NCBI RefSeq assembly: GCF_014198245.1
Contig: NZ_JACIHE010000003.1
Span: 434,001 to 498,000, forward strand
DNA length: 64,000 bases
Direction of reading: 5' to 3'
DNA from: Bradyrhizobium sp. cir1
Lineage (GTDB): Bacteria > Pseudomonadota > Alphaproteobacteria > Rhizobiales > Xanthobacteraceae
Below are positions 19,507 to 34,741 of this stretch, one piece after another (position 1 is the stretch's first letter; the number at the start of each line of letters is the position of its first letter). Position numbers and translations under genes: made by a program. The notes under the pieces were generated by a model that did no database searches, was not told the DNA's origin, and saw only the letters and a list, made by a program, of their open reading frames with translations.

Positions 19507-20445
19507 TCACGGCATGCGGGATTTCGCCAGCACGCAGTGAATGCCCTTGTTGCCGTCGACCAGCTGCGTGACGCGGAGGTCGGCGGCGATCGAGCAGAGC
19601 GTATAGGCATCCTGCGCGCTGAGGCCGCTTTTCTCGCGGATCAGCGCGATCATGTCGCGCAGCGCCGCCTTGGCGGCATCGTCGAGATCTTCGTCGAATC
19701 CCATGGTGATCCAGTCGGACGCCGTCTCGGCGCGCGGCGAGGTGAGACGACGATCGCGGCGGACGTGGAATTCGAAGGTGCCGGTGAGCGCGGCCTCGAT
19801 CGCGGTCAGGCAGACCTCGCCGTCGCCCTGCAGCGCGTGGCCGTCGCCGGCGGAGAACAGCGCGCCCGGCACGAACACCGGAAAATACAGCGTGCTGCCG
19901 GCCCCCAACTCCTTGTTGTCCATGTTGCCGCCGAACGCGCGCGGCTCCTTCGAGGACAGCCGGCCCCATGATGGCGGCGGCGCGACACCGAAATTGCCGA
20001 AGAAGGGAGAGAGCGGCAGCTCCTGGCCCCAGGGAAGCTTTGCGACGTTGCGCGCGCGGTCGAGCGGAATGTGGATGCGGCGGAATTCCGGAAAGTCCTC
20101 CGGCAGGGTACCGAGCGTCGGCACCTGCAGATTCCACCCCCAGTCGCAGCGCAGCTCGATATTCAAGACGCGCACTTCGAGCACGTCGCCCGGCTCGGCC
20201 CCCTCGATGTGGATCGGCCCCGTGAGAAGGTGCGGGCCCGGACCGCGGAAGGCGCTTGCCAGCACCTCCGCATGTCCGGGAACGGTGTCAAAGCCGAGCG
20301 AGGGATCGGGCAGATCGTCCGGCTCGCCCGACAGCGTCTCGATCCTCACCCGGTCTCCGGATGCGATCCGGAGCACCGGCTTCAATCGTCCGTCCCAGAG
20401 TCCCCACTGGACGTTTCCAGGAGTGGATCGCAGGACATGGTCCAT
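19507..20445 (-). CDS. Acetamidase/formamidase family protein
   Basis: 312-residue member of the FmdA/AmdA family, which hydrolyses short amides such as formamide or acetamide to the acid and ammonia. Family features seen are LTGPIHIEGAEPGDVLEV, the acidic GDGHALQGDGEVC segment that carries metal ligands, and FHVRRDRRL. The ATG at 20445 begins the conserved MDHVL; the open frame continues 17 codons upstream into the permease gene and is unlikely to be used. Only 4 bp separate it from the NCS1 permease stop, so both are one operon, and the permease probably brings in the amide substrate or a precursor. Confidence 0.88.
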   Translation of the reverse strand: MDHVLRSTPGNVQWGLWDGRLKPVLRIASGDRVRIETLSGEPDDLPDPSLGFDTVPGHAEVLASAFRGPGPHLLTGPIHIEGAEPGDVLEVRVLNIELRCDWGWNLQVPTLGTLPEDFPEFRRIHIPLDRARNVAKLPWGQELPLSPFFGNFGVAPPPSWGRLSSKEPRAFGGNMDNKELGAGSTLYFPVFVPGALFSAGDGHALQGDGEVCLTAIEAALTGTFEFHVRRDRRLTSPRAETASDWITMGFDEDLDDAAKAALRDMIALIREKSGLSAQDAYTLCSIAADLRVTQLVDGNKGIHCVLAKSRMP

Positions 20446-20449
20446 ACCG

Positions 20450-21868
20450 CTACCTGCCCGCGCTGCTCGCAACGATCGAGGAGGGCGAGGTGACAAGCTT
20501 GCCGAGCCCGAGATAGACGAGGCCCGCTACGCCAATTCCGAACAGCCAGCTCAGATCGGCTCCGCCCAGGAAGTTGATCGAGACCGGTCCCTGCAGCGCG
20601 CCGACGAGGCCGTCCTCCACCAGCCAGCCCGCGACGAGGCCGGCGAAGAACGCGATCATGCCGGCCCAGTTGATGTCGCCATAGGCGCTGGTCTCCGGCG
20701 AGCGGTAGAGCTCGGCGACGTCGATCTCGCCCTTGCGCTTGATGAAGTAGTCGGCGAGCACCACGCCGGCCCACGGGCTCATCCACAAGAGCAGGCTGAT
20801 CATCCAGTTGTCGAACGCTTTCGCGAACGACGGCGCGAAGATGAAGTAGAGGGTGACCAGATAGCCGGCGACGCCGACGATGACGGTGAGCCAGAAGCGC
20901 GAGAATTTCAGCCCCGCGCTCAGCGCTGCCAATGTCGCCGAATAGACGTTGAGGATGTTGGTAGCGATCGGGCCGTGCAGCACCATCAGCAGCACGAGGA
21001 TGCTGACGGGCCCGCCGAACACCGCGCTGACCATCTTGGCGGGATCGGTGTCCAGCGTCGTCGAGGCGATGGTCGCACCTAAGATGCCGAGCCAGACCGT
21101 CGGCACGAACATGCCGATATAGCTGTACCAGAACACGGACTTCGAAGGCGTGCTGCGCGGCACGAAGCGCGAATAGTCGGAGGCCCAGGTCACCCAGGAA
21201 ATGCCCCAGCCGACGCCGATCGCGGTCATCAGCAAGGTCAGCATCGCCATATGCGCACCGGGCGGCAGCGAGGTCGTCAGGCCCCAGTTGACGACGCCGG
21301 GGCGCGTCCAGGCCAAGACGCTCATCAGCACCATGATGGCGATGGTCGGCGGCACCGTGTACTTCTCGAAGGTGCGGATCGCGTAGAAGCCGTAGATGCC
21401 GATCAGCACCTGCGCCGCCATCACCAGCGTGATGACGACGATCTCGATCAGCCAGGTATCGGGCACGCCGAACTGGCCGAGGATGCCCATCGAGACCTTC
21501 ACCGGGAAATAGGTGTTCACGCCGATCCAGCCCAGCGTCATCAGGAACATCAGGATGCTGGGCAGGTAGGCGCCGCGAACGCCGAAGGCGGACCGGCTCA
21601 GCACCATCTGGTTCACGCCGGTCTTGTGTCCCATCACCGTGAAGGTCGCGAAGATCGCGCAGCCCACGATGTTGCCGAGCACGATGACCGCGATCGTCTC
21701 CATCAGGCCGAGCTTGAGGATGATTCCGAGCGCGCCGAGCGCCCAGTTGACCGGCGCGATGTTGGCGCCGGCCCAAATCCACATCTGCTGCGGCCCGGTC
21801 GAGTCCCGGTCCGCATCGGGAATTGGTTCGATGCTGTGAATATCAGCGCGAAGTTCGGAATCCGTCAT
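20450..21868 (-). CDS. NCS1-family nucleobase/hydantoin:cation symporter
   Basis: 472-residue transporter of the NCS1 family (uracil, cytosine, allantoin and benzyl-hydantoin permeases). About 12 hydrophobic segments can be seen; the first contains MWIWAGANIAPVNWALGALG, a region that helps form the cation and substrate sites in this family. I chose the ATG at 21868 because GGGGGA lies just upstream; a TTG four codons earlier is possible. The gene starts 13 bp from a palindrome shared with the marR-amidohydrolase gap. Because the window also encodes two cyclic-amide hydrolases, hydantoins or related ring amides are attractive substrates, but nucleobases cannot be excluded. Confidence 0.9.
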   Translation of the reverse strand: MTDSELRADIHSIEPIPDADRDSTGPQQMWIWAGANIAPVNWALGALGIILKLGLMETIAVIVLGNIVGCAIFATFTVMGHKTGVNQMVLSRSAFGVRGAYLPSILMFLMTLGWIGVNTYFPVKVSMGILGQFGVPDTWLIEIVVITLVMAAQVLIGIYGFYAIRTFEKYTVPPTIAIMVLMSVLAWTRPGVVNWGLTTSLPPGAHMAMLTLLMTAIGVGWGISWVTWASDYSRFVPRSTPSKSVFWYSYIGMFVPTVWLGILGATIASTTLDTDPAKMVSAVFGGPVSILVLLMVLHGPIATNILNVYSATLAALSAGLKFSRFWLTVIVGVAGYLVTLYFIFAPSFAKAFDNWMISLLLWMSPWAGVVLADYFIKRKGEIDVAELYRSPETSAYGDINWAGMIAFFAGLVAGWLVEDGLVGALQGPVSINFLGGADLSWLFGIGVAGLVYLGLGKLVTSPSSIVASSAGR

Positions 21869-21880
21869 GACATCCCCCAA

Positions 21881-21898
21881 TACGAAGCACGCTTCGCA
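21881..21898. promoter_or_regulatory. Palindromic operator before the NCS1 permease
   Basis: TACGAAGCACGCTTCGCA, inverted half-sites TACGAAGC and GCTTCGCA. It ends 13 bp upstream of the NCS1 start, next to the ribosome site, where binding would block transcription. The same palindrome occurs twice at 22726-22767. A lone half-site TGCGAAGC is at 21927-21934. Confidence 0.6.
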
Positions 21899-22134: not shown

Positions 22135-22644
22135 CTAGTTGAATAGGGCAGCGGAACTGTCGCGACTTGGGTTGCCGGCCACGATGCGCTGCATCATCTC
22201 GATGAAGAGCGCCTGTTCCCGCTCGCTCAAATCGCCGAGCGTCGCACGATGCGCCCGCCGCGCCGCGCCCTCGATCTTGACCAGCAGCGCGGCGCCGGCC
22301 GGCGTCAATCGGCACAACCGCGCGCGCCGATCGTCCTTGTTCACGGCACGCTCGACCAGGTTCCGGGCGGCGAGCCGCTTCAGCGCGCCGGTCGTCGTGG
22401 TCCGATCCAGCGCAATATCGGCCGCCAAAGTGGTCTGATCGGCGGTTTCGCGCACCGCCAGCGCCGAGAGCAGGCTGTATTGCAGCGGTGTGACCTCGAA
22501 TTCACCGCAAGCGTCCTGAAACAGCGCGACGTGAATCTGGTGCAGCCGCCGGATCAGATAGCCGGGTCGTTGCGACAATGGCCAGGGGCGGTGCTTGCCC
22601 CCGCTGCGACTTTTCCTGGCTTGCCGCAATGCACTCTCTCCCAA
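22135..22644 (-). CDS. MarR family transcriptional regulator
   Basis: Up to 169 residues. A winged helix-turn-helix of the MarR type is clear: TPLQYSLLSALAVRETADQTTLAADIALDRTTTTGALKRLAARNLVER, with the wing VNKDDRRARLCRLTPAG. There is no ATG at the N-terminus; the drawn start is a TTG at 22644, and a TTG at 22629, preceded by GGGAGAGAG, is an equally good candidate. The basic leader (RQARKSRSGGKHRPW) is unusual. It lies between the NCS1 permease and the divergent amidohydrolase. Palindromes of the size MarR dimers bind occur before both neighbours, so it probably represses them until a ligand, perhaps a pathway substrate, is bound. Confidence 0.9.
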   Translation of the reverse strand: MGESALRQARKSRSGGKHRPWPLSQRPGYLIRRLHQIHVALFQDACGEFEVTPLQYSLLSALAVRETADQTTLAADIALDRTTTTGALKRLAARNLVERAVNKDDRRARLCRLTPAGAALLVKIEGAARRAHRATLGDLSEREQALFIEMMQRIVAGNPSRDSSAALFN

Positions 22645-22725: not shown

Positions 22726-22743
22726 TACGAAGCATACTTCGTA
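22726..22743. promoter_or_regulatory. Palindromic operator, distal copy (marR-amidohydrolase gap)
   Basis: TACGAAGCATACTTCGTA; the outer seven bases on each side are perfectly inverted. It lies about 70 bp upstream of the amidohydrolase start and about 80-100 bp from the marR start, so it can serve both divergent promoters. Confidence 0.65.
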
Positions 22744-22749
22744 TCCAAA

Positions 22750-22767
22750 TGCGAAGCATGCTTCGTA
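22750..22767. promoter_or_regulatory. Palindromic operator, proximal copy (marR-amidohydrolase gap)
   Basis: TGCGAAGCATGCTTCGTA; perfect inverted repeat except for one base pair near the ends. Its centre is 24 bp from that of the distal copy, about two helical turns, so two dimers could bind on nearly the same face. Confidence 0.65.
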
Positions 22768-22814: not shown

Positions 22815-24092
22815 ATGTCCGTCACAGCCAGCTTCGACCTTCTGCTGCGAGGCGGTCGCGTGATTTGCCCGGCCTCCGGTGTCGATGGCATCAAAGACGT
22901 TGCCATCCGGGGCGGCAAGATCGCGGCGGTCGCGGCGGACATCCTGCCGACCAGCGCGAAGGAGGTGGTCGATGTCAGCGGCAAGCTGGTGCTGCCCGGG
23001 CTGATCGACACCCACGCGCATGTCTATCAATATGTCTCCGGCCGCTTCGGCATGAACCCCGACATGGTCGGCGTGCAGTCGGGCGTGACGACGCTGGTCG
23101 ACCAGGGCGGGCCGTCCTGCATGACGCTGCCGGGCTTTCGCCATTTCATCGCGGAGCAAGCGGCCTCGCGCGTCTATGCGTTTATCTCCGCCTATCTCGT
23201 CGGCGGATTGGAGGGACACTACTATCCGCAGCTCTACAGCCCCGACGGCGTCGACATCGATGCGACGGTCAAGGCGGCGACGGCCAATCTCGACATCGTG
23301 CGCGGCATCAAGGCCCATGCCGAGATCGGCGGCTTCGCGCGTTGGGGCATTCGCGTCATCGAGATGGCGGCGGAGATCGGCAAGCGCGCCGACCTGCCCG
23401 TCTATGTGCATTTCGGCCAGCTCTGGGGGCTGCCCGAGAGCGGCGCCAATGGCGAGGATGCCGACACCATCCTCACCCGCGTGATCCCGCTCTTGCGCGA
23501 GGGCGACATTCTCGCACATCCCTTCACGCGCCATCCCGGCGGCTTCGTCAACCGCGAGGGCGAGGTGCACCCGGTGATCCAGGCCGCGCTCGATCGCGGC
23601 CTCAAGGTCGATGTCGGCCACGGCAGCCACTTCTCCTACCGGCTCGCCAAGAAGGCGATCGCCGCCGGCATCATTCCGACCACGCTGGGCGCCGACATTC
23701 ACGGCTACAACACCCATGTGCCCGCGCCGGCCGGAACGCCCGACCAGCATGAGGACGACGAGAACCATCCGTTCGCGGGCCAGGCCAAGTTCAGCCTGGT
23801 GCAGGCCATGAGCTCGATGATGGCGCTCGGCCTGTCGCTGGAGCAGGTGGTGCCGATGGTCACCTCCAATCCCGCAAAAATGCTCGGACGCAGCAGCGAG
23901 ATCGGCGCGCTCAAGGTCGGCATGGACGCCGACGTCTCCGTGCTCGCGGAGCAGAACGGCCGCTTCGTCCTGAAGGACAATGAGAAGAACGAGGTGATCG
24001 CCGAGCGTCTGCTGCAGCCGGCCTTCTGCCTGCGCGCAGGCACGCGCTTCGACGCGGTCGCGCCGATCCTGCCGCAAGCCGTCGCGGCGTAA
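22815..24092 (+). CDS. Amidohydrolase/deacetylase-family metallohydrolase
   Basis: 425-residue metal-dependent hydrolase of the amidohydrolase superfamily. Typical elements are LLRGGRVICPASG at the N-terminus, the metal-binding H67 and H69 (DTHAHVYQY), a GIKAHAE segment that may supply the bridging lysine, and later histidines in AHPFTRHPGG and DVGHGSHFSY with an aspartate in TLGADIHGYNTH. It is closer to the dihydroorotase/deacetylase-like EF_0837 group than to the hydantoinase at 3883. The ATG at 22815 has a strong AAGGAGAG site. It is preceded by two operator palindromes and followed 9 bp later by a molybdenum hydroxylase, which suggests ring hydroxylation followed by ring opening. Substrate unknown. 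Confidence 0.85.
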   Translation: MSVTASFDLLLRGGRVICPASGVDGIKDVAIRGGKIAAVAADILPTSAKEVVDVSGKLVLPGLIDTHAHVYQYVSGRFGMNPDMVGVQSGVTTLVDQGGPSCMTLPGFRHFIAEQAASRVYAFISAYLVGGLEGHYYPQLYSPDGVDIDATVKAATANLDIVRGIKAHAEIGGFARWGIRVIEMAAEIGKRADLPVYVHFGQLWGLPESGANGEDADTILTRVIPLLREGDILAHPFTRHPGGFVNREGEVHPVIQAALDRGLKVDVGHGSHFSYRLAKKAIAAGIIPTTLGADIHGYNTHVPAPAGTPDQHEDDENHPFAGQAKFSLVQAMSSMMALGLSLEQVVPMVTSNPAKMLGRSSEIGALKVGMDADVSVLAEQNGRFVLKDNEKNEVIAERLLQPAFCLRAGTRFDAVAPILPQAVAA

Positions 24093-24101
24093 GGCCCGGC
24101 G

Positions 24102-26495
24102 GTGAAGGAGGGCGCGGAGTTGCGCAACGAGCGAGAGTTTCCTTCGGGCAAGTCCGGGCAGGGCGTGGGCGCACGGCTGCCGCGCAAGGAGGACGACCGC
24201 CTGATGCGCGGCCGTGGCCTCTATGTCGGCGACGTCAGGCTCGCTGGCCTTCAGGACGTTGCCTTCGTCCGCAGCCCGCTGGCGCATGCACGCATTCGCG
24301 GCATCCACGTGCCCGAGCGCTATCGCGATCGCGTCTTCACGGCGGCCGATCTCGTCGGCATCAAGCCGATCCGCGCGGTGTCGGGACTTCCCGGTTTCAA
24401 GATTTCGGAGCAGCCGGTGCTGGCGACCGGCAAGGTGCGTCAGGTCGGCGAGCTCGTCGCGATGTGCCTCGCGCCGACGCGGGCCGAGGCGGAGGACATC
24501 GCGGCCTCCGTGACGCTCGATCTGGAGGAGTTGCCCGCGATCACCGACATGCTGAAGGCCCGCGAGCCCGGCTCGGCGCTGGTGCACGAGCATTGGGGCG
24601 ACAACGTCTTCCTGGAGACCAACTACGAGGTCGACATCTCCGCCGCGCTCGATGCGCCGATCAAGGTAACGCGCGAGATCTCGACCGCGCGGCAATGCAT
24701 GTCGCCGCTGGAAGGCCGCGGCGTGGTCGCGACCTTCGATTCCCGGCTGGACCAGCTCACGCTGCATTCGGCGGCTCAGATGCCGCACATCACGCGCAGC
24801 GGCCTTGCTGAATGCCTCGGCATGGAGGAGAGCCAGATCCGCGTCATCTCGCCCGACGTCGGCGGTGGTTTCGGCCACAAGGGCATTCTGCTGCCGGAAG
24901 AGGTCTGCCTGTCCTGGCTGACGATGCGCTGCGGCCATCCCGTGCGCTGGCTCGAAGATCGCCGCGAGCATCTCGTCGCCAGCTCCAACTGCCGCGAGCA
25001 CCATTACAGGATCACGGTCTATGCTGACCGCGACGGCAGCTTGCGAGGCATCGATTGCGAGGCGACCGTGGATTCCGGCGCCTACTCGTCCTATCCGTTC
25101 TCGGCCTGCTTGGAGGCCGCGCAGGTCGCCAGCATCCTGCCGGGTCCTTACAAGATGCCGGCCTACCGTTGCCGCACCTTCTCGGTCGCCACCAACAAAT
25201 GCCCGATCCTGCCGTATCGCGGCGTTGCGCGCACCGGCGTCTGCTTCGCACTGGAGCTGATGCTCGACCTCGTGGCGGCCGAGGCCGGCCTCGAGCCCGG
25301 CGAAGTGCGGCTGCGCAATCTGGTGCGCCCCGAGCAGATGCCGTTCGACAACATCACGAAGAAGCATTTCGACAGCGGCGATTATCCGGAAGCGATGCGG
25401 CGCGCGCTCGCCGCGATCGACATCGACGCCATCCGCACCAGGCAAAAGCAGGGCACGCCCGACGGCCGCCGCATCGGCGTCGGCGTCTCCATCTATTGCG
25501 AGCAGGCCGCGCACGGCACTTCCGTTTATTCCGGCTGGGGCATTCCGATGGTGCCGGGTCACGAGCAGGCCTCGGCGCGGCTGACGCCGGACGGCGGCCT
25601 CGAACTGCGCGTCGGCGTGCATTCGCACGGGCAGGGCATGGAGACCACGCTCGCCCAGGTCGCGCATGAGATCCTCGGCGTCGACGTCGCAAACATCCGC
25701 ATCATCCTCGGCGACACCGCGATGACGCCTTATTCGACCGGTACCTGGGGCTCGCGCTCGATGGTGATGGCGGGCGGCGCGGTCGCAACCGCCAGCCGCG
25801 AGCTCGGCGAACGTGCCCGGCGCATCGGCGCGAAATTGTTACAGCACGATCCGGCCTCCGTGGTGTTGCAGAATGGCGAGGTGCGCGGCGTCAACGGCAG
25901 CGTCAGCCTGAAGGCGATCGCCCACACCTGGTATCGCCGCCCGCAGGACTTGCCGGCCGATGTCGATCCCGGCGGGCTGGAGGTGACGCAAGGCTACAAG
26001 CCCGTGCGCGACAGCGGGACGTTCAGCTACGCTGCCCATGCGGCCGTCGTCGCCGTCGATCCTGATCTCGGCGAGGTGGAAATTCTTGATTACGTGATCG
26101 TCGAGGATGGCGGCGTGCTGGTCAATCCGCTCGTCGTCGACGGCCAGATCTATGGCGGCCTCGCCCAAGGTATCGGCACCGCGCTCTACGAGGAAATGCC
26201 GTTCGATGCCTCCGGCCAGCCGCTGGCAACGACGCTCGCCGACTATCTGCTGCCCGGGCCGACCGAAGTTCCCGCCGCGCGCCTCGACCACATGGAGACG
26301 CCGTCGCCCTATACGCAGTTCGGCGTGAAGGGCATCGGCGAGGGCGGAGCGATCGCGCCGCCGGCCGCCATCGCCAACGCCGTCAACGACGCGCTGCGCC
26401 CGCTCGGCGTCGAGCTGATGCAGTCGCCGATCACGCCGCATCGGATTGTCGCAGCGGTGCTGGCCGCGCGCGCGACCGAGAGGAGCGCGGCATGA
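24102..26495 (+). CDS. Molybdenum hydroxylase, molybdopterin-binding large subunit
   Basis: 797-residue large subunit of the xanthine dehydrogenase/CO dehydrogenase family, which hydroxylates N-heterocycles, aldehydes or CO using water as oxygen source. Seen are the N-terminal RLPRKEDDRLMRGRGLYVGD, the SPDVGGGFGHKG molybdopterin segment, and the GIGEGGAIAPP motif with the catalytic Glu at residue 747. The loop that reads AYxCSFR in true CO dehydrogenase is PYRGVARTGVC here, so CO oxidation is unlikely. The start is a GTG at 24102, but AAGGAGG just after it points to a TTG at 24120 as a real alternative. It overlaps the FAD subunit gene by 4 bp. Confidence 0.92.
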   Translation: MKEGAELRNEREFPSGKSGQGVGARLPRKEDDRLMRGRGLYVGDVRLAGLQDVAFVRSPLAHARIRGIHVPERYRDRVFTAADLVGIKPIRAVSGLPGFKISEQPVLATGKVRQVGELVAMCLAPTRAEAEDIAASVTLDLEELPAITDMLKAREPGSALVHEHWGDNVFLETNYEVDISAALDAPIKVTREISTARQCMSPLEGRGVVATFDSRLDQLTLHSAAQMPHITRSGLAECLGMEESQIRVISPDVGGGFGHKGILLPEEVCLSWLTMRCGHPVRWLEDRREHLVASSNCREHHYRITVYADRDGSLRGIDCEATVDSGAYSSYPFSACLEAAQVASILPGPYKMPAYRCRTFSVATNKCPILPYRGVARTGVCFALELMLDLVAAEAGLEPGEVRLRNLVRPEQMPFDNITKKHFDSGDYPEAMRRALAAIDIDAIRTRQKQGTPDGRRIGVGVSIYCEQAAHGTSVYSGWGIPMVPGHEQASARLTPDGGLELRVGVHSHGQGMETTLAQVAHEILGVDVANIRIILGDTAMTPYSTGTWGSRSMVMAGGAVATASRELGERARRIGAKLLQHDPASVVLQNGEVRGVNGSVSLKAIAHTWYRRPQDLPADVDPGGLEVTQGYKPVRDSGTFSYAAHAAVVAVDPDLGEVEILDYVIVEDGGVLVNPLVVDGQIYGGLAQGIGTALYEEMPFDASGQPLATTLADYLLPGPTEVPAARLDHMETPSPYTQFGVKGIGEGGAIAPPAAIANAVNDALRPLGVELMQSPITPHRIVAAVLAARATERSAA

Positions 26496-27328
26496 AACCG
26501 GCGCCCTTTGCTTATGAGCGTCCGCGCGATCTCAATGCCGCGCTGTCGATGCTGGCAGCAGGCAACGGGTCGGCAAAGATCATCGCCGGCGGCCAGTCGC
26601 TCGGTCCCATGCTCAATCTGCGGCTGGTACAGCCGGAGCTGATTATTGACATCTCCGGCCTTGTCGAGCTCAAGCGCGCCGAGATTTCCGGCGGCGAGCT
26701 CGTGCTGGGCGCCCTGGTTACGCATGCCGACATCGAGGACGGTCGCACCGCCGACGTGACGCGCGGCGCCATGCGCGGCGTCGCGACCAATATCGCCTAT
26801 CGCGCAGTGCGCAACCGCGGCACGATCGGCGGCTCGCTCAGCCATGCCGATCCCGCCGCGGACTGGATCTCGGCGCTCGCGGCTCTCGGCGCGCGCGTGA
26901 CGCTGCGCAGCCTTGCCGGTGCGCGATCGATGGCCGTCGAAGCGTTTGTGGTCGGTGCGCTGGAATCCGCGCTGCATGCCAGCGAGATCGTCGAAGCGGT
27001 CCATGTGCCGATGCGCGCGGCGTCGGCGCATTGGGGCTACGCCAAGAGCTGCCGCAAGACCGGCGAGTTCGCCCATGCCATCGGCGCGGTGCTGATCGAT
27101 CCCGCCGCCGCCTCGGCGCGCGTCGTGATCGGTGCCATCGATACGACGCCGATCGTCATCACTGATGCCGCGGAGCTTTTCGGCGGCCGGATCGCCGCCG
27201 ACTACAAGCAGCGTTTTGATGTCCGTGTCGCCGACGCGCTCCTTGCAAAAGCTGGTATCGACGACGCCGCGCAGCGCCACATCCATATCAGCGTGCTGAA
27301 GCGCGCCGTCCTGGAGGCTGGGGCATGA
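26492..27328 (+). CDS. Molybdenum hydroxylase, FAD-binding medium subunit
   Basis: 278-residue CoxM/XdhB-like subunit that passes electrons from the iron-sulfur clusters to the acceptor through FAD. The two FAD-binding motifs AGGQSLGPMLNLRL and GTIGGSLSHADPAAD are both clear, as is the start FAYERPRDLNAALSML. Length matches the family (about 280-290). Overlaps both neighbours by 4 bp, so the three subunits are made together. Confidence 0.93.
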   Translation: MKPAPFAYERPRDLNAALSMLAAGNGSAKIIAGGQSLGPMLNLRLVQPELIIDISGLVELKRAEISGGELVLGALVTHADIEDGRTADVTRGAMRGVATNIAYRAVRNRGTIGGSLSHADPAADWISALAALGARVTLRSLAGARSMAVEAFVVGALESALHASEIVEAVHVPMRAASAHWGYAKSCRKTGEFAHAIGAVLIDPAAASARVVIGAIDTTPIVITDAAELFGGRIAADYKQRFDVRVADALLAKAGIDDAAQRHIHISVLKRAVLEAGA

Positions 27329-28521
27329 CCACGATCGCGCTTCAGGTCAATCGCCGCGCGGTGGAGCTGTCGGCTGAGCCGCGCACCAGCCTTGCCGATT
27401 TCGTCCGCGACAAGCTCGACCTCACCGGCACGCATCTTGGCTGCGAGCATGGCGTCTGCGGCGCTTGCACGGTGCTGCTCGACGGCGTGCCGGCGCGGTC
27501 CTGCATCACCTACGCGGCAGCCTGCGAGGGCGCCGATGTCACCACGATCGAAGGCCTCGACGAGGACGAGATCTCGACCGAGCTGCGCGCCGCCTTCACC
27601 CGCGAGCACGCGCTGCAATGCGGCTATTGCACGCCGGGCATGCTGGTCTCGGCGCGTGACCTGGTGCTGCGTCTGCCCGACGCCGACGAGCGACGCATCC
27701 GCGTCGGCCTCAGCGGCAATCTGTGCCGCTGCACAGGCTATGTCGGCATCGTGCGCGCGGTGCAGTCCGTCATCGAGGCGAGGCGTGCGCGTAACGTCGC
27801 GCCGCTAGCCGATGGCGGCCGCACCAGCCTCGGCCCCGTCGGGTCTGGGCGCGCCACAGCTAGCCGCAGCGAGCGGCCTGTGCAGCAAGCGTTGGCTCCG
27901 GCATCAGAGAGTGCCACGCCGGGCAGCATTCCCGACTTCACGCCGGCAACCGTGCTCGACCAGCGCTTCACGCTGGCGCATCCGCCGGCCAAGGTGTTCG
28001 CGATGTTCGACGACATCGCGGGCATCGCGGCCTGTCTTCCCGGCGTATCGCTGAAATCGCCGCCAAGGCCGGAGCGCGTGGAAGGTTTGATCCGCGTCAG
28101 GCTCGGGCCGATCGCCGCGGCCTTCGAGGGGGCCGCGCGCGTCGAGCGCGATCCCGCGACGCTCTCGGGGCGCATCGTCGGCATCGGCACCGACCAGCGC
28201 AGCCATTCGGCGACGCAAGGCGAGATCCGCTACCGCCTGCTGCCGCTTGAAAACGGCGCGGCGACCGCGGTCGAACTGTCGATCGGTTACACGCTGACGG
28301 GAATGCTCGCTCAGGTCGGCCGGCCCGGCCTGGTGCGGGATCTTGCAAAACGTCTCGTTGCGGAGTTCGCCGCCAATCTCGACCGCCACATGTCCGGCGC
28401 GTCGTCGGGGCAGGCAGCCCCGGCGGAGCTCAGCTTCTGGTCGATCGTATCGGACGTCTTGCGAGCCCTGCTCGCGCGAATATTTGGCCGCGCCTTCACC
28501 GGAAGAGGTGGCGCGCAATGA
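27325..28521 (+). CDS. [2Fe-2S] small subunit fused to a CoxG-like SRPBCC domain
   Basis: 398-residue protein, far longer than the usual 150-170 residues of the small subunit. Residues 1-155 are a complete CoxS/XdhC-type iron-sulfur protein: the plant-type cluster uses C40, C45, C48 and C60, the second cluster C99, C102, C134 and C136. After a low-complexity linker (about 160-205), residues 206-360 form a CoxG/SRPBCC domain (FTLAHPPAKVFAMFDDIAGIAACLPGVSL). CoxG is normally a separate protein that in CO dehydrogenase systems links the enzyme to the membrane. The last 40 residues include a hydrophobic stretch (FWSIVSDVLRALLARIFG) that may touch the membrane. The fusion is in one uninterrupted frame. 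Confidence 0.92.
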   Translation: MTTIALQVNRRAVELSAEPRTSLADFVRDKLDLTGTHLGCEHGVCGACTVLLDGVPARSCITYAAACEGADVTTIEGLDEDEISTELRAAFTREHALQCGYCTPGMLVSARDLVLRLPDADERRIRVGLSGNLCRCTGYVGIVRAVQSVIEARRARNVAPLADGGRTSLGPVGSGRATASRSERPVQQALAPASESATPGSIPDFTPATVLDQRFTLAHPPAKVFAMFDDIAGIAACLPGVSLKSPPRPERVEGLIRVRLGPIAAAFEGAARVERDPATLSGRIVGIGTDQRSHSATQGEIRYRLLPLENGAATAVELSIGYTLTGMLAQVGRPGLVRDLAKRLVAEFAANLDRHMSGASSGQAAPAELSFWSIVSDVLRALLARIFGRAFTGRGGAQ

Positions 28522-28596: not shown

Positions 28597-29751
28597 ATGA
28601 CACGAACAATCCGACTGGTTCCGGCAATCGCGCTGGCAACGGCCTTGGTCGGCGGTGCTGTGCAGGCGCAGACCATCAAGATCGGCGTCAACGAGCCGCT
28701 CACCGGCGCCTTCGCGGCGTCAGGCACTTACGTCGTCAACGGGGCCAAGATCGCCGCCGACGAGATCAACGCCAAGGGCGGCATCCTCGGCAAGAAGATC
28801 GAGCTTGTCATCGAGGACAACAAGAGCAACCCGACGGAAGCCGCCGCCGTTGCCGAAAAGCTCATCACCAGCGACAAGGTGCCGGTGCTGATGGGCGCCT
28901 GGGGCTCGAGCCTGACGCTTGCGGTGATGCCGAAGCTGATGGAATATGAGACGCCGATGGTGGTGGAGACCTCGTCATCCGGCAAGATCACGACGACGGG
29001 CAATCCCTTCATCTTCCGTATCTCGCCGCCCTCGGCAGTCGAGGCCGCGGCCTTCAAGGGCATCGTCGACAAGCTCGCGCTGAAGAAAGTCGACTTCCTC
29101 GTCATCAACAACGACTGGGGCCGCGGCACCGCCGAGGACTTCAGCAAGATGATGAAGGACAAGGGCATCACCATCGGTCTCGTCGAGACCATGGACCAGG
29201 GCGCGCAGGACATGAGCGCGCAGCTCTCCAAGATCAAGAGCTCGGATTCCGAGACGGTCATCGTCACGACTGCGGTCGACCAGCTCACGCTGATCTTCAA
29301 GCAGGCGGCTGCCCTCGGCCTGAAGAAGCGCATCATCACCACCGGCGGCTCGCAGAACCCGGACCAGATCATCGCCCAGGCGGGCGCCGCCGCCAACGGC
29401 ACCATGCATCTGACGACGTTCCTGCCGTGGTTCCCGGACAAGACGCCGAACCCGGAAGCCACCAACTATTTCATCACGGAATGGAAGAAGCGCGGCTTCG
29501 AGTTCGCCGGCTGCACCGAGAGTTTTCGCGGTTATGACGGCATCCGCACCGCTGCTGCGGCGATCGAGAAGGCCGGCAAGGCCGAGCCTGCCGCGATCAA
29601 GGCGGCGCTGTGGAACATCAACATCAAGGGGCTGAACGGCGACATCGTGTTCCGCAAGTCCGGCCCCGAGGGCAAGGAGAGCGGGCAGAGCCAGCCGAAC
29701 GTCTATCTCATCGAGATCAACGACGGCAAGGTCGAGATGAAGACGCTTTAA
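28597..29751 (+). CDS. ABC transporter substrate-binding protein (Liv type)
   Basis: 384-residue periplasmic binding protein of the leucine/isoleucine/valine-binding family. The signal peptide (LVPAIALATALVGGAVQA, cut before QTIKIG) is followed by the typical GVNEPLTGAFAASGTYVVNGAKIAADEIN opening in consecutive segments. Family members bind branched amino acids, amides, urea or aromatic acids. The ATG at 28597 has GGAGAG six bases upstream. It sits 75 bp after the molybdenum hydroxylase genes and about 280 bp before the permease genes, from which it is separated by an inverted repeat, a common way of making the binding protein in excess. Confidence 0.92.
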   Translation: MTRTIRLVPAIALATALVGGAVQAQTIKIGVNEPLTGAFAASGTYVVNGAKIAADEINAKGGILGKKIELVIEDNKSNPTEAAAVAEKLITSDKVPVLMGAWGSSLTLAVMPKLMEYETPMVVETSSSGKITTTGNPFIFRISPPSAVEAAAFKGIVDKLALKKVDFLVINNDWGRGTAEDFSKMMKDKGITIGLVETMDQGAQDMSAQLSKIKSSDSETVIVTTAVDQLTLIFKQAAALGLKKRIITTGGSQNPDQIIAQAGAAANGTMHLTTFLPWFPDKTPNPEATNYFITEWKKRGFEFAGCTESFRGYDGIRTAAAAIEKAGKAEPAAIKAALWNINIKGLNGDIVFRKSGPEGKESGQSQPNVYLIEINDGKVEMKTL

Positions 29752-30035: not shown

Positions 30036-30908
30036 TTGAGCGAATTCCTCCAGCATCTGATCAACATGCTCGTTCTCGGCGGCACCTATGCGCTGCTGGG
30101 TATCGGGCTGACCTTGATCTTCGGCATCATGAACGTCGTGAACTTCACGCATGGCGTGCTCTACACGTTCGGCGCCTACATCATGTTCATCGTGGTGCAG
30201 CAGCTCGGGCTCAACTTCTTTCTCGCTTTGCCCGTGGCCGTGCTGGCTGGATGGCTGTTAGGCGCGGCCATCGAATTGACATTGCTGCGTCCACTGCGCG
30301 GCTCCGACATCGACACCACCATGCTGGTGATGATCGGCGCCTGGATCGCGATGCAGTCGGGCACGCTGTGGATCTGGGGCGGCGTCGCCAAATCGGTGGC
30401 GACGCCGTTTCCGGAGGCGCCGCTGGTGCTCGGGCCGGTGTCCGTCTCCTGGCTGCGTCTGTTCGTGCTCGCCGCCGCGGCACTGTTGATCCTGGTGACG
30501 TATCTTTTGATCAACAAGACCAGCCTCGGCCGCGCGATGCGGGCGACGTTCCAGGACCACGACACGGCGTCGCTGATGGGCGTCAATGTCGACATGATCT
30601 ACACCTCGACCTTCGCGATCGGCTCCAGCCTGGCCGCCGCCGCCGGCGCGCTGCTCGGGCCGGTCTACGTGATCTTTCCGCAGATGGGGGATCTCGCCGC
30701 GGTGAAGGCCTTCGCCATCGTCATCCTCGGCGGTCTCGGCAATATCACCGGCGCGGTGATCGGCGGCTTCATCCTGGCGCTCGCCGAGGAGCTCGGCGCG
30801 GGCTACGTTTCGTCCGGCTACCGTGATGCGATGGGCTTTCTGATCATCATCGCCGTCTTGATCTTTCGGCCGACCGGCCTGTTCGCGCGCGCGGAGCGCG
30901 TCGGATGA
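30036..30908 (+). CDS. livH: Branched-chain amino acid-type ABC permease (LivH)
   Basis: 290-residue inner membrane permease. The opening LGGTYALLGIGLTLIFGIMNVVNFTHG is the LivH hallmark, and the loop with ALAEELGAGYVSSGYRDAMGF closes the family pattern. About eight membrane segments are visible. The start is a TTG at 30036, since no ATG fits the conserved N-terminus. Overlaps livM by 4 bp. Confidence 0.92.
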   Translation: MSEFLQHLINMLVLGGTYALLGIGLTLIFGIMNVVNFTHGVLYTFGAYIMFIVVQQLGLNFFLALPVAVLAGWLLGAAIELTLLRPLRGSDIDTTMLVMIGAWIAMQSGTLWIWGGVAKSVATPFPEAPLVLGPVSVSWLRLFVLAAAALLILVTYLLINKTSLGRAMRATFQDHDTASLMGVNVDMIYTSTFAIGSSLAAAAGALLGPVYVIFPQMGDLAAVKAFAIVILGGLGNITGAVIGGFILALAEELGAGYVSSGYRDAMGFLIIIAVLIFRPTGLFARAERVG

Positions 30909-31951
30909 GGGCGATCATCACCATCCTCGTCATCGCAGCGCTGGCCTCGGTGCCGCTCTGGCTGCGCGATCCCTATCTCCTGAACGCGCTGATTACGACC
31001 GGGATCTTCGTCATCGGTGCGATGAGCCTCAATCTGCTGCTCGGATTCACCGGCCAGCTCAGCCTCGGCCATATCGCCTTCTTCGGTATCGGCGCCTATG
31101 TCAGCGCGCTGACATCGCTCGGCTTCGACATCGGCCTGCCCGGAGGCTTGCGGCTGGTTCACACGCCCTGGCCGCCGATAATAGGCTTCGTGCTGGCGAT
31201 CCTGATTGCGGGATTGTGCGGCTATTTCGTCGGGCTGCTCTCGTTCCGCGTTCGCGGCGCCTATTTCGTCATCGTGACGATTTCCTTTGCCGAGGTGGTG
31301 CGGCTGGTCGCGCTGAACTGGGTCGAGCTGACGCAGGGTCCGTTGGCGCTGACCAACATTCCCTCCATCGCGCTGCCCTTGCCCGGCTTCGGCGAGCTGA
31401 CGCTGCGCACCAAGATGCAGAACTACTATCTCGTTCTGGTCGTCGCGCTCACCGCCTACTTCCTGATCGCGCGCCTCGTTCATTCCCATTTCGGCCGCTC
31501 CATGCGCGGATTGATGGAAAATGAGACGCTGGCCGTTTCCGTCGGCATCGACGTGACCAGGACGCTGACGGTCGCGGCCGTGATCTCGGCCGCGATTGCG
31601 GGCGCGGCCGGCAGCCTCTATGCGCACTACATCCGGATCATCGACCCTGAGGTGTTCGCCTTCATCAACACCGTGACCATGGTCATCATGGTGATCTCGG
31701 GCGGCAAGGGCTCGCTCGCGGGGCCCGTCGTCGGCGGCCTGATCTTCGGGCTGCTGCCGGTCGCGCTTCGTCCGGTGATGGCGCCGGAAGCGCAATGGAT
31801 CGCCTATGGCGGCGTTCTGATCGCGATCTTGTTCGTGCTGCCGCGCGGCATCGTGCCCTCGCTTGCGCAGCGGTTGACCCGGCGACGGAGCGCGACGACG
31901 GCGCTGGCACCGGTCGCGCTGACGGAAACCGGCGCCAAGGAGCCGGCGTGA
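30905..31951 (+). CDS. livM: Branched-chain amino acid-type ABC permease (LivM)
   Basis: 348-residue permease with the LivM signature region MSLNLLLGFTGQLSLGHIAFFGIGAYV in adjoining segments and FRVRGAYFVIVTISFAEVVRL. It pairs with LivH. The ATG at 30905 overlaps livH and its stop shares one base with the livG start, so expression is coupled. Confidence 0.92.
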   Translation: MRAIITILVIAALASVPLWLRDPYLLNALITTGIFVIGAMSLNLLLGFTGQLSLGHIAFFGIGAYVSALTSLGFDIGLPGGLRLVHTPWPPIIGFVLAILIAGLCGYFVGLLSFRVRGAYFVIVTISFAEVVRLVALNWVELTQGPLALTNIPSIALPLPGFGELTLRTKMQNYYLVLVVALTAYFLIARLVHSHFGRSMRGLMENETLAVSVGIDVTRTLTVAAVISAAIAGAAGSLYAHYIRIIDPEVFAFINTVTMVIMVISGGKGSLAGPVVGGLIFGLLPVALRPVMAPEAQWIAYGGVLIAILFVLPRGIVPSLAQRLTRRRSATTALAPVALTETGAKEPA

Positions 31952-32733
31952 TGACGGCGCGCAGCATTGCCATGACGATCGATCAGGTCGCCGTCCGCTT
32001 CGGTGGGCTGGTTGCGATCTCCGACATGAGCTTTACGGTCGGCGACGGCGAGATCGTCAGCCTGATCGGGCCGAACGGTGCCGGCAAGACCACCGCCTTC
32101 AACGTCATGACCGGCTTCCTGACGCCGAGCGCGGGCCATGTCACTTATCAGGGCACCACGCTGACCGGATTGAAGCCGCATGAGATCGCCGATCTCGGCC
32201 TGATCCGCACCTTCCAGCGCACCAGCGTGTTCCCGAACGACACCGTCTACGACAATCTCCTGATCGGCCTGCATCGTCAGGGTCGGGTCCGGCTGCTCGA
32301 CGCCATCCTCGGTCTCCCGGGTGCCCGCGCCTCGGAGCGCAGGCTGCGGCAGCGGGCGGGCGAGCTGCTCGAATGGGTCGGCCTCGAACGCCGCGCGCAT
32401 GATGCCGCCGGATCGCTCTCCTATGGCGAGCAGCGCCTGGTCGGCGTCGCGCTGGCGCTGGCGGCCGAGCCTTCGATGCTGCTGCTCGACGAGCCCGTCT
32501 CCGGCATGAACGCCTCGGAAACGCACCGCTTCGTCGAGCTGATCCGCAGCATCCGCGACCGCGGCATCACGATTTTGCTGGTCGAGCACGACATGCCGAT
32601 GGTGATGACCGTCTCGGACCGCATCGTGGTGCTCAACTATGGCCGCATCATCGCGGAGGGAACGCCGGACGTGATCCGCAACCATCCGGCCGTCATCGAA
32701 GCCTATCTCGGACATGGAGCGGGACGTGCTTGA
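31951..32733 (+). CDS. livG: ABC transporter ATP-binding protein (LivG)
   Basis: 260-residue ATPase with Walker A GPNGAGKTT, the LivG-typical GLIRTFQRTSVFPNDTVYDNL, signature LSYGEQRLVGVALAL and Walker B MLLLDEPVSGM. The ATG at 31951 is one base into the livM stop; the upstream open frame is not needed. Its 3' end overlaps livF by 20 bp. Confidence 0.93.
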   Translation: MTARSIAMTIDQVAVRFGGLVAISDMSFTVGDGEIVSLIGPNGAGKTTAFNVMTGFLTPSAGHVTYQGTTLTGLKPHEIADLGLIRTFQRTSVFPNDTVYDNLLIGLHRQGRVRLLDAILGLPGARASERRLRQRAGELLEWVGLERRAHDAAGSLSYGEQRLVGVALALAAEPSMLLLDEPVSGMNASETHRFVELIRSIRDRGITILLVEHDMPMVMTVSDRIVVLNYGRIIAEGTPDVIRNHPAVIEAYLGHGAGRA

Positions 32734-33430
32734 GATCCGCGACATGGTCTGCGGCTATGGCGGCGTCACCGCGCTGCGCGGCATCTCGCTCGACGTGAGG
32801 GCCGGGCAGCTGGTCGCCCTGATCGGCGCCAACGGCGCCGGCAAGAGCACGACGCTGCGCGCGATTTCCGGCCTGGTGCCGCCGCGCTCCGGCCAGATGA
32901 AGTTCGAGGGCGTCGACATCACCGGCGCGAGGCCGCCGCGCGTGCTGGCGAGCGGGATCGCGCATTGTCCGGAAGGGCGGCGCGTGTTCCCGCACATGAG
33001 CGTCGAGGAGAATCTCGACATGGGGGCTTACCTCCGTCGTGGTTCGGGTGAGATCGCGGCGGACCGCGACCGCATCTACGCCGAATTTCCCCGGCTCGCC
33101 GAGCGGCGCCGGCAGGCCGCGGGCACGCTGTCCGGTGGCGAGCAGCAGATGCTCGCGATCGGCCGCGCGCTGATGTCGCGGCCGCGGCTGATCATGTTCG
33201 ACGAGCCCTCGCTCGGGCTCGCGCCCAACATCGTCGAGCGGACCTTTGCGATCATCCGTGGCATCCGCGATGCTGGCACCACGGTGCTGCTGGTCGAGCA
33301 GAACGCCTTCGCCGCGCTCGAGATGTGCGATCATGCCTATCTGCTCGAGAACGGCCGCATCGTGCTGTCAGGCGCCGGCACCGAGCTGATCGAGAACGAG
33401 CATGTGCGCAAGGCCTATCTCGGTGGATGA
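32714..33430 (+). CDS. livF: ABC transporter ATP-binding protein (LivF)
   Basis: 238-residue ATPase with Walker A GANGAGKSTTLR, the LivF-typical GIAHCPEGRRVFPHMSVEENL, signature LSGGEQQMLAIGRAL and the FDEPSLGLAPNIVE Walker B region. The ATG at 32714 lies inside the end of livG. It completes the Liv-type importer (binding protein, H, M, G, F). Its 3' end overlaps the small Rieske gene. Confidence 0.93.
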   Translation: MERDVLEIRDMVCGYGGVTALRGISLDVRAGQLVALIGANGAGKSTTLRAISGLVPPRSGQMKFEGVDITGARPPRVLASGIAHCPEGRRVFPHMSVEENLDMGAYLRRGSGEIAADRDRIYAEFPRLAERRRQAAGTLSGGEQQMLAIGRALMSRPRLIMFDEPSLGLAPNIVERTFAIIRGIRDAGTTVLLVEQNAFAALEMCDHAYLLENGRIVLSGAGTELIENEHVRKAYLGG

Positions 33431-33755
33431 CGCGGCCGGGTGGATCCCGGTCTGCGATCTCGACCGGCTGAAGCTCGAGGCGATCGTCCGCGTCGCCGGG
33501 CGCGACCTGCTCGTGATCTGGAACGAGGGCAACATTGTTGCCTGCGAACGTGCGTGCCCGCACGAACAGGCGGATCTAGCCTTGGGGCAGGTGACGGCGG
33601 GGCGGCTCCATTGTCCGCGCCATGCGGCGTCATTCAACTTGCGCGACGGGACAATGACTGCCGGATGGCCAAGCCCGCCGTTGCGGCTCTATCCGGTGCG
33701 GATCACGGGCGAGCAAATCTGGATTGAGATGCAGGAGCGGCAGCCGGGGCGATGA
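33402..33755 (+). CDS. Small Rieske [2Fe-2S] protein
   Basis: 117 residues from the ATG at 33402, or 110 from a GTG at 33423; either start lies within the end of livF. The Rieske cluster motif is complete: C52-P-H54 and C71-P-R-H74 in ACPHEQADLALG...LHCPRHAASF. Such short soluble Rieske proteins are ferredoxin partners of ring-hydroxylating oxygenases or related to the nitrite reductase small subunit. No Rieske oxygenase alpha subunit is in the window, so its partner is unknown; the molybdenum hydroxylase upstream or an oxygenase elsewhere are both possible. Being the last gene of the Liv operon ties it to use of the imported compound. Confidence 0.85.
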   Translation: MCARPISVDDAAGWIPVCDLDRLKLEAIVRVAGRDLLVIWNEGNIVACERACPHEQADLALGQVTAGRLHCPRHAASFNLRDGTMTAGWPSPPLRLYPVRITGEQIWIEMQERQPGR

Positions 33756-33880: not shown

Positions 33881-34741
33881 TCAATCCAGCAGCCGCCGCG
33901 CGGCCTTCACCAGGACGCCGTCGGGCCGACGTAGCGCCTCGAGAATGGTGAAATGATCGGCGCCTTCGATCGCAATGAGCTGGCCCGGCGCTCCCGCCGC
34001 CGCGCGCTTCTCATGGAAGTCGATTGAATCGCACACCAGCGCCGGCAGTTCGCTGCCGCCATAGGCGATGTCGAGGCGCTTGTTGGTCACCGGCAGGCGA
34101 AGCGGCGAGAGCGTTGCGATCTCCTCGTCCGTCAGCTTGAGCGCGGTGTTCAGTCCGGTATCGCGGATCGGCGCGAGATCGTATACGCCCGAGAGTGCGA
34201 GCCCGGCATGGACGCGCGGATGGTTCAGCGCCATCGCGACGAGATGGGCACCAGCGGACCAGCCCGACAGGATGACCGGCCCGGCAACGCCATAGGCTGC
34301 GCCGTGCGCGGCGAGCCAGTCGAGCGCACGCGGGATATCGGCGACGATGTCGGTGAGGGACACTTCGGGCGCCAGCGAATAGCCGGGAATGGCAACCGAC
34401 CAGCCGTGGGCAGCAACGCCCTCGACCAGCATGGCGAACAGCTCGCGCGAATTGCGCTGCCAATAGCCGCCATGCACGAACACGAGGCAGGGCGCATCGG
34501 GCTTTGCGGCGGGGTAAAGATCGATCTTGTTGTTCGCCCGCTCGCCGTAAGGCAAGTCGAGATGGGATCTCAGCGTGCCGCGCAGCCGGGCGGACGCCTC
34601 GTTGCGCTCGGCGATCAGGGCCGGACTGTTCTTGACCGCCGCGTTGTTGTCATAGGCGGCGCTGCGCTCCGCCTGGGATAGTTCGGCCCATTTGCTGCGG
34701 GGATCGAAAGGGCGGCGCGTCGAGCTTGTGGTGTTGACCAT
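33881..34741 (-). CDS. Arylformamidase-like alpha/beta hydrolase
   Basis: 286-residue alpha/beta hydrolase. The oxyanion-hole motif HGGYW and the nucleophile elbow GWSAGAHL, with a late GADHFTI supplying the likely catalytic histidine, resemble N-formylkynurenine formamidases of the AFMID type. Residues RSAAYDNNAAVKNSPALIAERNEAS form the lid-like N-terminal region often seen in this group. The ATG at 34741 follows a CGGAGA ribosome site. It stands alone on the minus strand, convergent with the Liv-Rieske operon. Hydrolysis of an N-formyl or other amide/ester product of the neighbouring catabolic genes is a fair guess; simple carboxylesterase activity is the alternative. Confidence 0.82.
   Translation of the reverse strand: MVNTTSSTRRPFDPRSKWAELSQAERSAAYDNNAAVKNSPALIAERNEASARLRGTLRSHLDLPYGERANNKIDLYPAAKPDAPCLVFVHGGYWQRNSRELFAMLVEGVAAHGWSVAIPGYSLAPEVSLTDIVADIPRALDWLAAHGAAYGVAGPVILSGWSAGAHLVAMALNHPRVHAGLALSGVYDLAPIRDTGLNTALKLTDEEIATLSPLRLPVTNKRLDIAYGGSELPALVCDSIDFHEKRAAAGAPGQLIAIEGADHFTILEALRRPDGVLVKAARRLLD

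Follow-up and report, generated by a model that had tools for sequence, protein, structure and literature searches.

In nicotinate catabolism, a molybdenum-dependent dehydrogenase works alongside an enamidase, and molybdenum hydroxylation is thereby combined with an amidohydrolase acting on the ring. CoxG brings quinone to carbon monoxide (CO) dehydrogenase, and the hpx genes act on oxalurate. Here, we describe a locus that shares features with each of these systems. It lies in a 64,000-nucleotide stretch of Bradyrhizobium sp. cir1 (contig NZ_JACIHE010000003.1, positions 434,001 to 498,000; "the window," to which all coordinates refer), where genes for a molybdenum hydroxylase directly follow a gene for an amidohydrolase. 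With a probability of roughly 0.6, we read the locus as a catabolic regulon under MarR control whose substrate is a ring with nitrogen in it; this ring would be taken up, hydroxylated beside a ring nitrogen, and opened, with subsequent amide cleavage. The steps of this pathway are deduced from protein families, gene order, and the swapping of parts among relatives. The core operon consists of four genes.

22815..24092, plus strand: AH, COG3964-type metal-dependent amidohydrolase (NF006689, 441 bits)
24102..26495, plus strand: MoL, large (molybdopterin) subunit, containing the PYRGVARTGVC loop and the GEGG motif
26492..27328, plus strand: MoM, flavin adenine dinucleotide (FAD) subunit (Pfam FAD_binding_5, 156 bits)
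27325..28521, plus strand: MoS, [2Fe-2S] subunit fused to CoxG (Pfam Fer2_2, 92 bits; COXG, 36 bits)

The hydroxylase and its nearest kin

The four genes run in one direction, with 9 nt between AH and MoL and overlaps of 4 nt each at the MoL/MoM and MoM/MoS junctions. A first-pass annotation made by a model had reported the amidohydrolase and hydroxylase genes with this 9-nt spacing, and they were found exactly there. The three-subunit architecture of the molybdenum hydroxylase family is present, comprising a molybdenum cofactor-binding, an FAD, and a double [2Fe-2S] subunit. The same annotation had held that the active-site loop departs from that of CO dehydrogenase while the GEGG motif is kept, which we could confirm: PYRGVARTGVC occupies MoL residues 371 to 381 (DNA 25212 to 25244), and GEGG, the catalytic glutamate motif near the C terminus, occupies residues 746 to 749 (DNA 26337 to 26348). 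The CSFR loop of Mo-Cu CO dehydrogenase was not found in MoL, which carries PYRGVARTGVC in its place. When solved chains were aligned, quinoline 2-oxidoreductase showed AYRGVGFT at this position, and the loops of three CO dehydrogenases contained CSFR. The AH-linked large subunits inspected had the loop P(Y/F)RGVARTGVC; among the members of their clade, L125 has A for T. G727, E728, and G730 (numbering from MoL residue 20) were invariant in 24 of them.

A profile built from these 24 AH-linked large subunits was scored against solved enzymes. Quinoline 2-oxidoreductase was the top match at 626 bits, and sequence search also ranked it first. CO dehydrogenases followed as second-best matches (472 to 570 bits), and 6-hydroxypseudooxynicotine dehydrogenase reached 465 bits, glyceraldehyde oxidoreductase 407 bits, and 4-hydroxybenzoyl-CoA reductase 311 bits. 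Nicotinate dehydrogenase subunits scored 147 to 155 bits. The first-pass annotation had proposed a comparison with known hydroxylases; by these profile scores, MoL does not cluster with the aldehyde oxidases or xanthine dehydrogenases, for which values of 114 to 247 bits stood against the 626 bits of quinoline 2-oxidoreductase (Desulfovibrio aldehyde oxidoreductases, 214 to 247; xanthine dehydrogenases and other aldehyde oxidases, 114 to 168). The data thus support an enzyme that lacks the CO loop and, as judged from its sequence, falls nearest to quinoline 2-oxidoreductase rather than to aldehyde oxidases. Identities of MoL as a CO dehydrogenase or an aldehyde oxidase were rejected on the profile scores. 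Thirteen NCBIfam models matched MoL, every one below its cut-off; MoL therefore fits no curated equivalog of that collection.

These scores bear on two other explanations. An operon for CO dehydrogenase (form II CoxL) would account for the CoxG domain, for the rank of the solved CO dehydrogenases, and for the 554 bits that the NCBIfam CO dehydrogenase model gave on MoL. However, that model has a cut-off of 950 bits, the CSFR loop is missing, and the partner genes encode an amidohydrolase, a permease, and a Liv importer, which makes this explanation extremely improbable. Purine catabolism by a xanthine dehydrogenase would agree with the automatic names, since the public records inspected call MoL a xanthine dehydrogenase family protein (and AH a generic amidohydrolase). 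Solved xanthine dehydrogenases reached only 135 to 163 bits with the MoL profile, though, and the XdhA models scored far below cut-off on MoL. We regard this assignment as very unlikely as well.

In the small subunit, eight cysteines are positioned for two [2Fe-2S] clusters (C40, C45, C48, and C60; C99, C102, C134, and C136), followed by a linker, a CoxG domain at about residues 208 to 356, and a C-terminal helix at residues 371 to 392. The structure model had a mean predicted local distance difference test value (pLDDT) of 79 and a predicted template modeling score of 0.47. Its CoxG part matched Mycobacterium smegmatis CoxG (8uds) with a template modeling score of 0.91 by target length at 21% identity; the title of the 8uds entry specifies CoxG without the lipid-anchoring C terminus. 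In Azospirillum and Caballeronia, a separate SRPBCC gene directly after the iron-sulfur gene takes the place of the fusion.

The relationship between the large subunits was followed in a quick tree of 71 rows, 4 of which were paralogues from the same genome used as an outgroup; solved enzymes were placed by profile scores only, and the tree program flagged long branches. Rows were labelled AH-linked if AH lay within about 8 kb (L123 and L161 have AH that far off). All 39 AH-linked rows fell into one branch of 46 rows with a Shimodaira-Hasegawa-like approximate likelihood ratio test support of 99, and the label required five changes on the tree. The loop PYRGVARTGVC is not exclusive to this clade and also occurred in L135, L138, and L158 outside it. 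The neighboring branch (support of 82) contained 13 rows labelled as lying beside ring-hydroxylating dioxygenase genes plus 2 others, the label being taken from clusters named by sequence. These 13 rows (L133, L134, L136 to L139, L146, L148, and L150 to L154) have Rieske ring-hydroxylating dioxygenase-like neighbors, and 12 of the 13 carry the loop PYRGVARPGVC.

Gene linkage and a shared palindrome

The core operon is surrounded by the following features.

22135..22644, minus strand: MarR-family regulator gene, divergent from the AH operon (Pfam MarR, 41 bits)
22726..22743: putative operator, first copy of the palindrome, TACGAAGCATACTTCGTA, preceding AH
22750..22767: putative operator, second copy, TGCGAAGCATGCTTCGTA, 24 bp from the first
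21881..21898: putative operator, third copy, with 2 mismatches, ending 12 nt short of the probable start codon (ATG) of NCS1
20450..21880, minus strand: NCS1-family permease, cytosine/purine/hydantoin type (Pfam Transp_cyt_pur, 180 bits)
19507..20496, minus strand: FmdA/AmdA-family amidase, downstream of NCS1 on the same strand (Pfam FmdA_AmdA, 120 bits)
28597..29751, plus strand: Liv-type solute-binding protein, SBP (Pfam Peripla_BP_6, 223 bits)
30036..33430, plus strand: LivH, LivM, LivG, and LivF, recognized from their translations
33402..33755, plus strand: Rieske-type ferredoxin (Pfam Rieske, 55 bits)
33881..34741, minus strand: ABhyd, alpha/beta hydrolase, after the Rieske gene, with lipase and esterase as first solved kin

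Conservation of this arrangement was examined in the best 80 of 131 AH relatives (named loci L039 to L118), many of which are close kin and some of which are shortened by contig ends. MoL was present in 79 of the 80 loci, and MoM and MoS in 77; 76 encoded homologues of SBP, LivH, and LivM. In 78 loci, the MarR gene was present and divergent; in the other two (L088 and L115), the sequence begins too near AH. The remaining parts were more variable: 58 loci had the Rieske gene (57 of them among the 62 loci L039 to L100), 44 had ABhyd, and 41 had NCS1. In 16 of the 18 loci L101 to L118, AH and MoL are separated by ABhyd. The exceptions are L108, where no ABhyd occupies this position, and L109, in which AH-ABhyd occurs without MoL. 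In Methylobacterium radiotolerans JCM 2831, AH, ABhyd, and MoL correspond to MRAD2831_RS60745, RS60750, and RS60755.

A class-wide draw of 385 genomes was then scored for AH (E value of 1e-60 or better) and for MoL (two candidates per genome at an E value of 1e-230). AH was detected in 19 genomes, and in 16 of these MoL lay on the same contig, 15 times within 0.9 kb and once (G177) at about 8 kb. Likewise, 16 of the 19 genomes with a MoL of at least 62% identity contained AH. AH in the 16 MoL-linked genomes had at least 54% identity; this line, with 16 of 16 pairs above and 0 of 3 below, was set after the result was seen. The pairing of AH and MoL exceeds chance, and the gene set is conserved across genera, among them Bradyrhizobium, Rhodopseudomonas, and Methylobacterium as well as Azospirillum and Paraburkholderia. 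At the level of gene order, the link between the two enzymes claimed in the first-pass annotation is supported by their tight linkage and by the putative operator copies upstream of both. Neither of the results that the annotation would have taken as a refutation was encountered, the link with AH being judged from gene order.

The second line of evidence is an 18-bp palindrome, TACGAAGYATRCTTCGTA, of which two copies are located between the MarR and AH genes and a third precedes the divergent NCS1 gene. In the window, it matched at three places (six strand matches), compared to 0.03 matches expected. When the complete 8.65-Mb genome was scanned with up to 3 mismatches, it occurred at those three places and nowhere else. 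The named loci (1.62 Mb) were scanned on one strand with up to 2 mismatches and without a shuffle control. The scan returned 124 sites in the 80 loci, every one upstream of AH or of a minus-strand NCS1. The palindrome preceded AH in 74 of the 80 loci (62 of 62 for L039 to L100 and 12 of 18 for L101 to L118) and NCS1 in 35 of the 40 loci with a minus-strand NCS1.

With at most 1 mismatch allowed, a scan of 98 Bradyrhizobium genomes yielded 56 palindrome places in 40 genomes, all located 1.33 to 2.26 kb upstream of MoL, and these 40 genomes were all among the 42 with a MoL of at least 82% identity. The two that were missed (G032 and G048) contain the site at 2 mismatches. No palindrome was found at up to 1 mismatch in the other 56 genomes, which have no MoL at 82% or more, and a reversed control pattern matched in 3 of the 98. 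The palindrome shared by AH and NCS1 makes it very probable that the gene for the NCS1 permease and the AH operon belong to a single MarR regulon, of which FmdA would be a part wherever it lies behind NCS1, as in the window. The divergent gene and the shared palindrome agree with the MarR control proposed in the first-pass annotation; binding of MarR to the palindrome is presumed from its position. Such a locus-specific palindrome would offer a ligand sensor and reporter with which the substrate could be found without guessing its chemistry.

The first-pass annotation had also placed a Liv importer, a Rieske gene, and a formamidase gene behind the operon. Importer and Rieske genes are indeed found there; the FmdA/AmdA-family gene is actually located upstream on the minus strand, past NCS1. 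It belongs to the Pfam family but reached only 70 bits on the FmdA formamidase equivalog (cut-off of 500), and it probably starts near 20385. NCS1 probably starts at an ATG 12 nt inside its open reading frame. Palindromic repeat-like DNA was seen by eye at about 29840 to 29960, between the SBP gene and livH. As the spacing between these two genes varies among the named loci, a mobile repeat may be present there. The right end of the window is occupied by a plus-strand open reading frame of 5,086 codons with a TTG start (48247 to 63507).

The amidohydrolase and the proposed pathway

AH exceeded the NF006689 cut-off of 371 bits, whereas the D-hydantoinase model gave 59 bits (cut-off of 393), below the level required of a D-hydantoinase or dihydropyrimidinase. 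Residues H67, H69, K166, H199, H235, and D294 were invariant in 27 AH homologues; by alignment with 2ogj, they are candidate metal ligands. The AH model matched 8wzy, 8je0, 2ics, and 2ogj first and then allantoinase, dihydroorotase, and hydantoinase. The sequence of AH is compatible with both cyclic and acyclic amides and does not decide between them. A second gene of the NF006689 family (456 bits) is present elsewhere in the genome (contig C38; L168, 9027 to 10169), with no MoL homologue labelled in the 20 kb around it.

In the pathway that we propose, the ring compound would enter the cell through the Liv ATP-binding cassette (ABC) importer or the NCS1 permease. MoL-MoM-MoS would then hydroxylate the ring carbon adjoining a nitrogen to give a lactam or cyclic ureide. 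Electrons would reach FAD by way of two [2Fe-2S] clusters and may be passed on to membrane quinone by the CoxG domain of MoS. AH would hydrolyze the newly formed cyclic amide and thereby open the ring. The exposed acyl or carbamoyl amide could be cut by ABhyd or, in other organisms, by an amidase with HpxZ, and FmdA, where present, may process a small amide that is released. The hydroxylation and ring opening suggested in the first-pass annotation are, as a whole, partly supported.

The family affiliations of the two hydrolases raise the possibility of an aldehyde module. AH and ABhyd would act as deacetylase and esterase, releasing an alcohol, amine, or aldehyde, and MoL-MoM-MoS would oxidize the aldehyde to an acid without any ring opening. 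NF006689 is titled amidohydrolase/deacetylase, and the solved kin of ABhyd are a lipase and an esterase first (9n8r, 2e-51; 2pbl, 1e-27) and kynurenine formamidase thereafter. The NCBIfam glyceraldehyde dehydrogenase model gave MoL 544 bits, short of the 790 bits set as its cut-off, and solved glyceraldehyde oxidoreductase reached 407 bits with the MoL profile. The top rank of quinoline 2-oxidoreductase by sequence and profile, and its similar loop, argue against such a module. Furthermore, the NCS1, HpxZ, AllG, PxpA/B/C-like, and cytosine deaminase proteins encoded at these loci suit nitrogen compounds and not aldehydes. We therefore consider an aldehyde module unlikely.

Within the preferred pathway, from ring hydroxylation to ring opening, we favor a hydantoin- or pyrimidine-like ring as the substrate. 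A more specific form would lead from hydantoin via parabanate to oxalurate, or from uracil or thymine via barbiturate to ureidomalonate, after which the ureido acid would be cut. The NCS1 permease under the shared palindrome fits such a cyclic ureide. In PDB searches, it matched the hydantoin permease Mhp1 (3e-9) and a cytosine permease (3e-7), and its scores on the NCBIfam models TIGR00800 (161 bits) and CytX (107 bits) remained below cut-off. Hydantoinases are also found nearby. A D-hydantoinase (3883 to 5352; 650 bits, cut-off of 393) is encoded at the left end of the window. Among the 48 loci L039 to L086, 17 have a hydantoinase-like gene at a distance of no more than 10 kb from AH (11 of one type, with 46 to 47% identity to the window hydantoinase, and 6 of another, with 85 to 87%). 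In the genome as a whole, three hydantoinases pass the cut-off, and two of these are encoded no more than 58 kb from AH. No palindrome was found near the hydantoinase genes in the genome scan at up to 3 mismatches; they are thus neighbors rather than demonstrated members of the regulon, and their link to AH is suggestive only. Next to the window hydantoinase, region 1570 to 5352 also encodes an Asp/Glu/hydantoin racemase and a carbon-nitrogen hydrolase, and two peptide/nickel-type ABC importers extend up to 19466. A second hydantoinase cluster (L166; contig C3, 394 to 400 kb) resembles one that adjoins NCS1 or FmdA in other Bradyrhizobium loci.

Relatives in which parts of the locus are exchanged provided further indications. 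NCS1 is integrated into the AH operon in G025 (L157, together with ABhyd) and G032 (L170). In four genomes (G025, G032, G048, and G065), the opposite side of MarR is occupied by a nitroreductase-family gene, a polar amino acid-type ABC importer, and a RidA-family gene. DUF1989 genes were seen in G025 and G048; the loci of G032 and G065 end earlier. The palindrome lies between MarR and this set in G025 and G065, and none was found there in G032 and G048. In G025, UAAP1 and UAAP2 exceeded their cut-offs; we take these two to form a carboxyguanidine deiminase.

Other loci retained the hydroxylase and exchanged its partner. L119 (MoL identity of 73%) yielded no AH even at an E value of 1e-4; its PxpA exceeds a subfamily cut-off and its PxpB the cut-off for PxpB, and a PxpC-like protein passes the threshold of the urea_amlyse_rel domain but not that of the PxpC equivalog. 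L145 and L147 (MoL, 72%) contain a PxpA-cluster gene and an FmdA homologue (57 to 58%). The AH-less hydroxylase of L145 is surrounded by F420-related genes, including an F420-0 ligase (Pfam), and the gene order in L147 is similar. A related hydroxylase without AH also lies among such genes in L159 (Sinorhizobium meliloti pSymA), where the annotation lists cofC, cofD, an F420-dependent LLM oxidoreductase, an ArgE/DapE deacylase, and diaminopropionate ammonia-lyase. Conversely, in L109 (Hansschlegelia), AH-ABhyd is accompanied by genes for an NCS1 permease (74%) and for a cytosine deaminase, which scored 801 bits (cut-off of 438). No MoL match was obtained at 1e-150 among 8 candidates from this genome, whose completeness is not stated. 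DUF1116/AllG genes were found in L160, L161, L164, and L165, and AllG was identified by Pfam in L126 and L160. HpxZ and an amidase are annotated in L161 and L164; in L161, HpxZ scored 215 bits (cut-off of 135) and the amidase 536 bits on PRK08310 (cut-off of 391), with AtzE below its cut-off. According to its Pfam name and to PMC11326118, AllG is part of oxamate carbamoyltransferase.

These exchanges suggest that the common intermediate could be an oxo-nitrogen ring, produced either by hydroxylation or by deamination and then opened by a hydrolase. On this view, a cyclic ureide or amidine would be a better candidate than nicotinate or quinoline. The sequence from hydantoin or pyrimidine to a ureido acid is nonetheless a tentative proposal. 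Genes for HpxZ, AllG, and a corresponding amidase are missing from the window operon, and the supporting links each come from a separate relative and need not share one substrate. The AllG partners AllF and AllH were not noticed in the loci inspected, in which no family search was aimed at them. Similarly speculative is a broader view, namely, a widespread and undescribed oxidative route for cyclic ureides or amidines of the pyrimidine or hydantoin type. The conserved AH would open an oxo-ring produced by molybdenum hydroxylation or, in loci without the hydroxylase, by a cytosine deaminase-like enzyme, and PxpA/B/C-like proteins, amidase-HpxZ-AllG, or DUF1989 would be swapped in elsewhere for opening or later steps. 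If true, a dehydrogenase activity on ureides or pyrimidines could thereby be assigned to a gene, and the CoxG domain of MoS would provide an electron path.

Several observations weigh against a ring-opening regulon. The reversed control pattern matched four times in the genome at 3 mismatches, as many as the true pattern by count, and the regulon case therefore rests on the positions of the sites and not on their number. Six of the 80 named loci lacked a palindrome at up to 2 mismatches. L109 shows that AH can occur without MoL, and FmdA, present in 19 of the 80 loci, is not a universal part. In the class-wide draw, the other three AH proteins (48 to 50% identity) had no MoL beside them, and G157, G297, and G326 contained MoL without AH. 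Five genomes (G184, G466, G307, G397, and G474) had the AH-MoL pair without adjoining MoM and MoS, whose best homologues lay on other contigs or far off. Seven rows of the 46-row clade had no AH nearby (3 beside Pxp genes and 4 others nested), and PxpB and PxpC were not seen in the L145 and L147 loci. The importers vary among relatives, and the substrate may vary too. The score of glyceraldehyde oxidoreductase with the MoL profile (407 bits) also has to be counted here. The AH model is of moderate quality (mean pLDDT of 75, with low stretches). Moreover, the nearest solved kin of AH are deacetylases; together with the deacetylase in the family title, this means that AH need not open a ring.

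Relation to described systems

No description of the operon, the AH family, or the hydroxylase was found in the open-access literature searched. Use of parabanic acid as a nitrogen source (PMC5491218) could not be tied to the present genes, and passages of PMC5017803, PMC10673610, PMC12904279, and PMC6692525 name other genes or genes that could not be mapped here. The parts are of known kinds. Within the open-access literature, their combination appears undescribed, as do the palindrome and, in this setting, the fusion to CoxG. The set currently goes by two labels only in the public records inspected, xanthine dehydrogenase family protein and generic amidohydrolase. Since it is widely kept and many of the bacteria that carry it are plant associated, its substrate may be a nitrogen compound that is common in plants or soil.

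The Azospirillum and Caballeronia versions of the locus carry HpxZ/AtzH with an amidase, a likeness that applies to the hpx genes too. The same pair recalls the atzG-atzE-atzH clusters (PMC6219798); none of these genes is found in the window operon, and section 14 of that article mentions no such hydroxylase. AH resembles the COG3964-type amidohydrolases (8wzy, 2ogj, 8je0, and 2ics) in sequence and predicted fold; it differs in its linkage to a molybdenum hydroxylase and in extra stretches near residues 203 to 216 and 300 to 326 relative to 8wzy. Nicotinate catabolism differs from the present system in its dehydrogenase, given the low scores of nicotinate dehydrogenase with the MoL profile, and no ring reductase was noticed in the window operon. 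Mo-Cu CO dehydrogenase with CoxG (8uem, 8uds, and 1n5w) is similar in its overall family and in the CoxG domain. Here, however, CSFR is replaced, and the CoxG domain forms part of the small subunit or, in Azospirillum and Caballeronia, an SRPBCC gene directly after that subunit takes its place. Quinoline 2-oxidoreductase (1t3q) is closest to MoL by profile score and shares YRGV in the loop. In contrast to that enzyme, the hydroxylase described here is tied to AH and to the Liv and NCS1 importers, and the CoxG domain of MoS was matched by no 1t3q chain seen.

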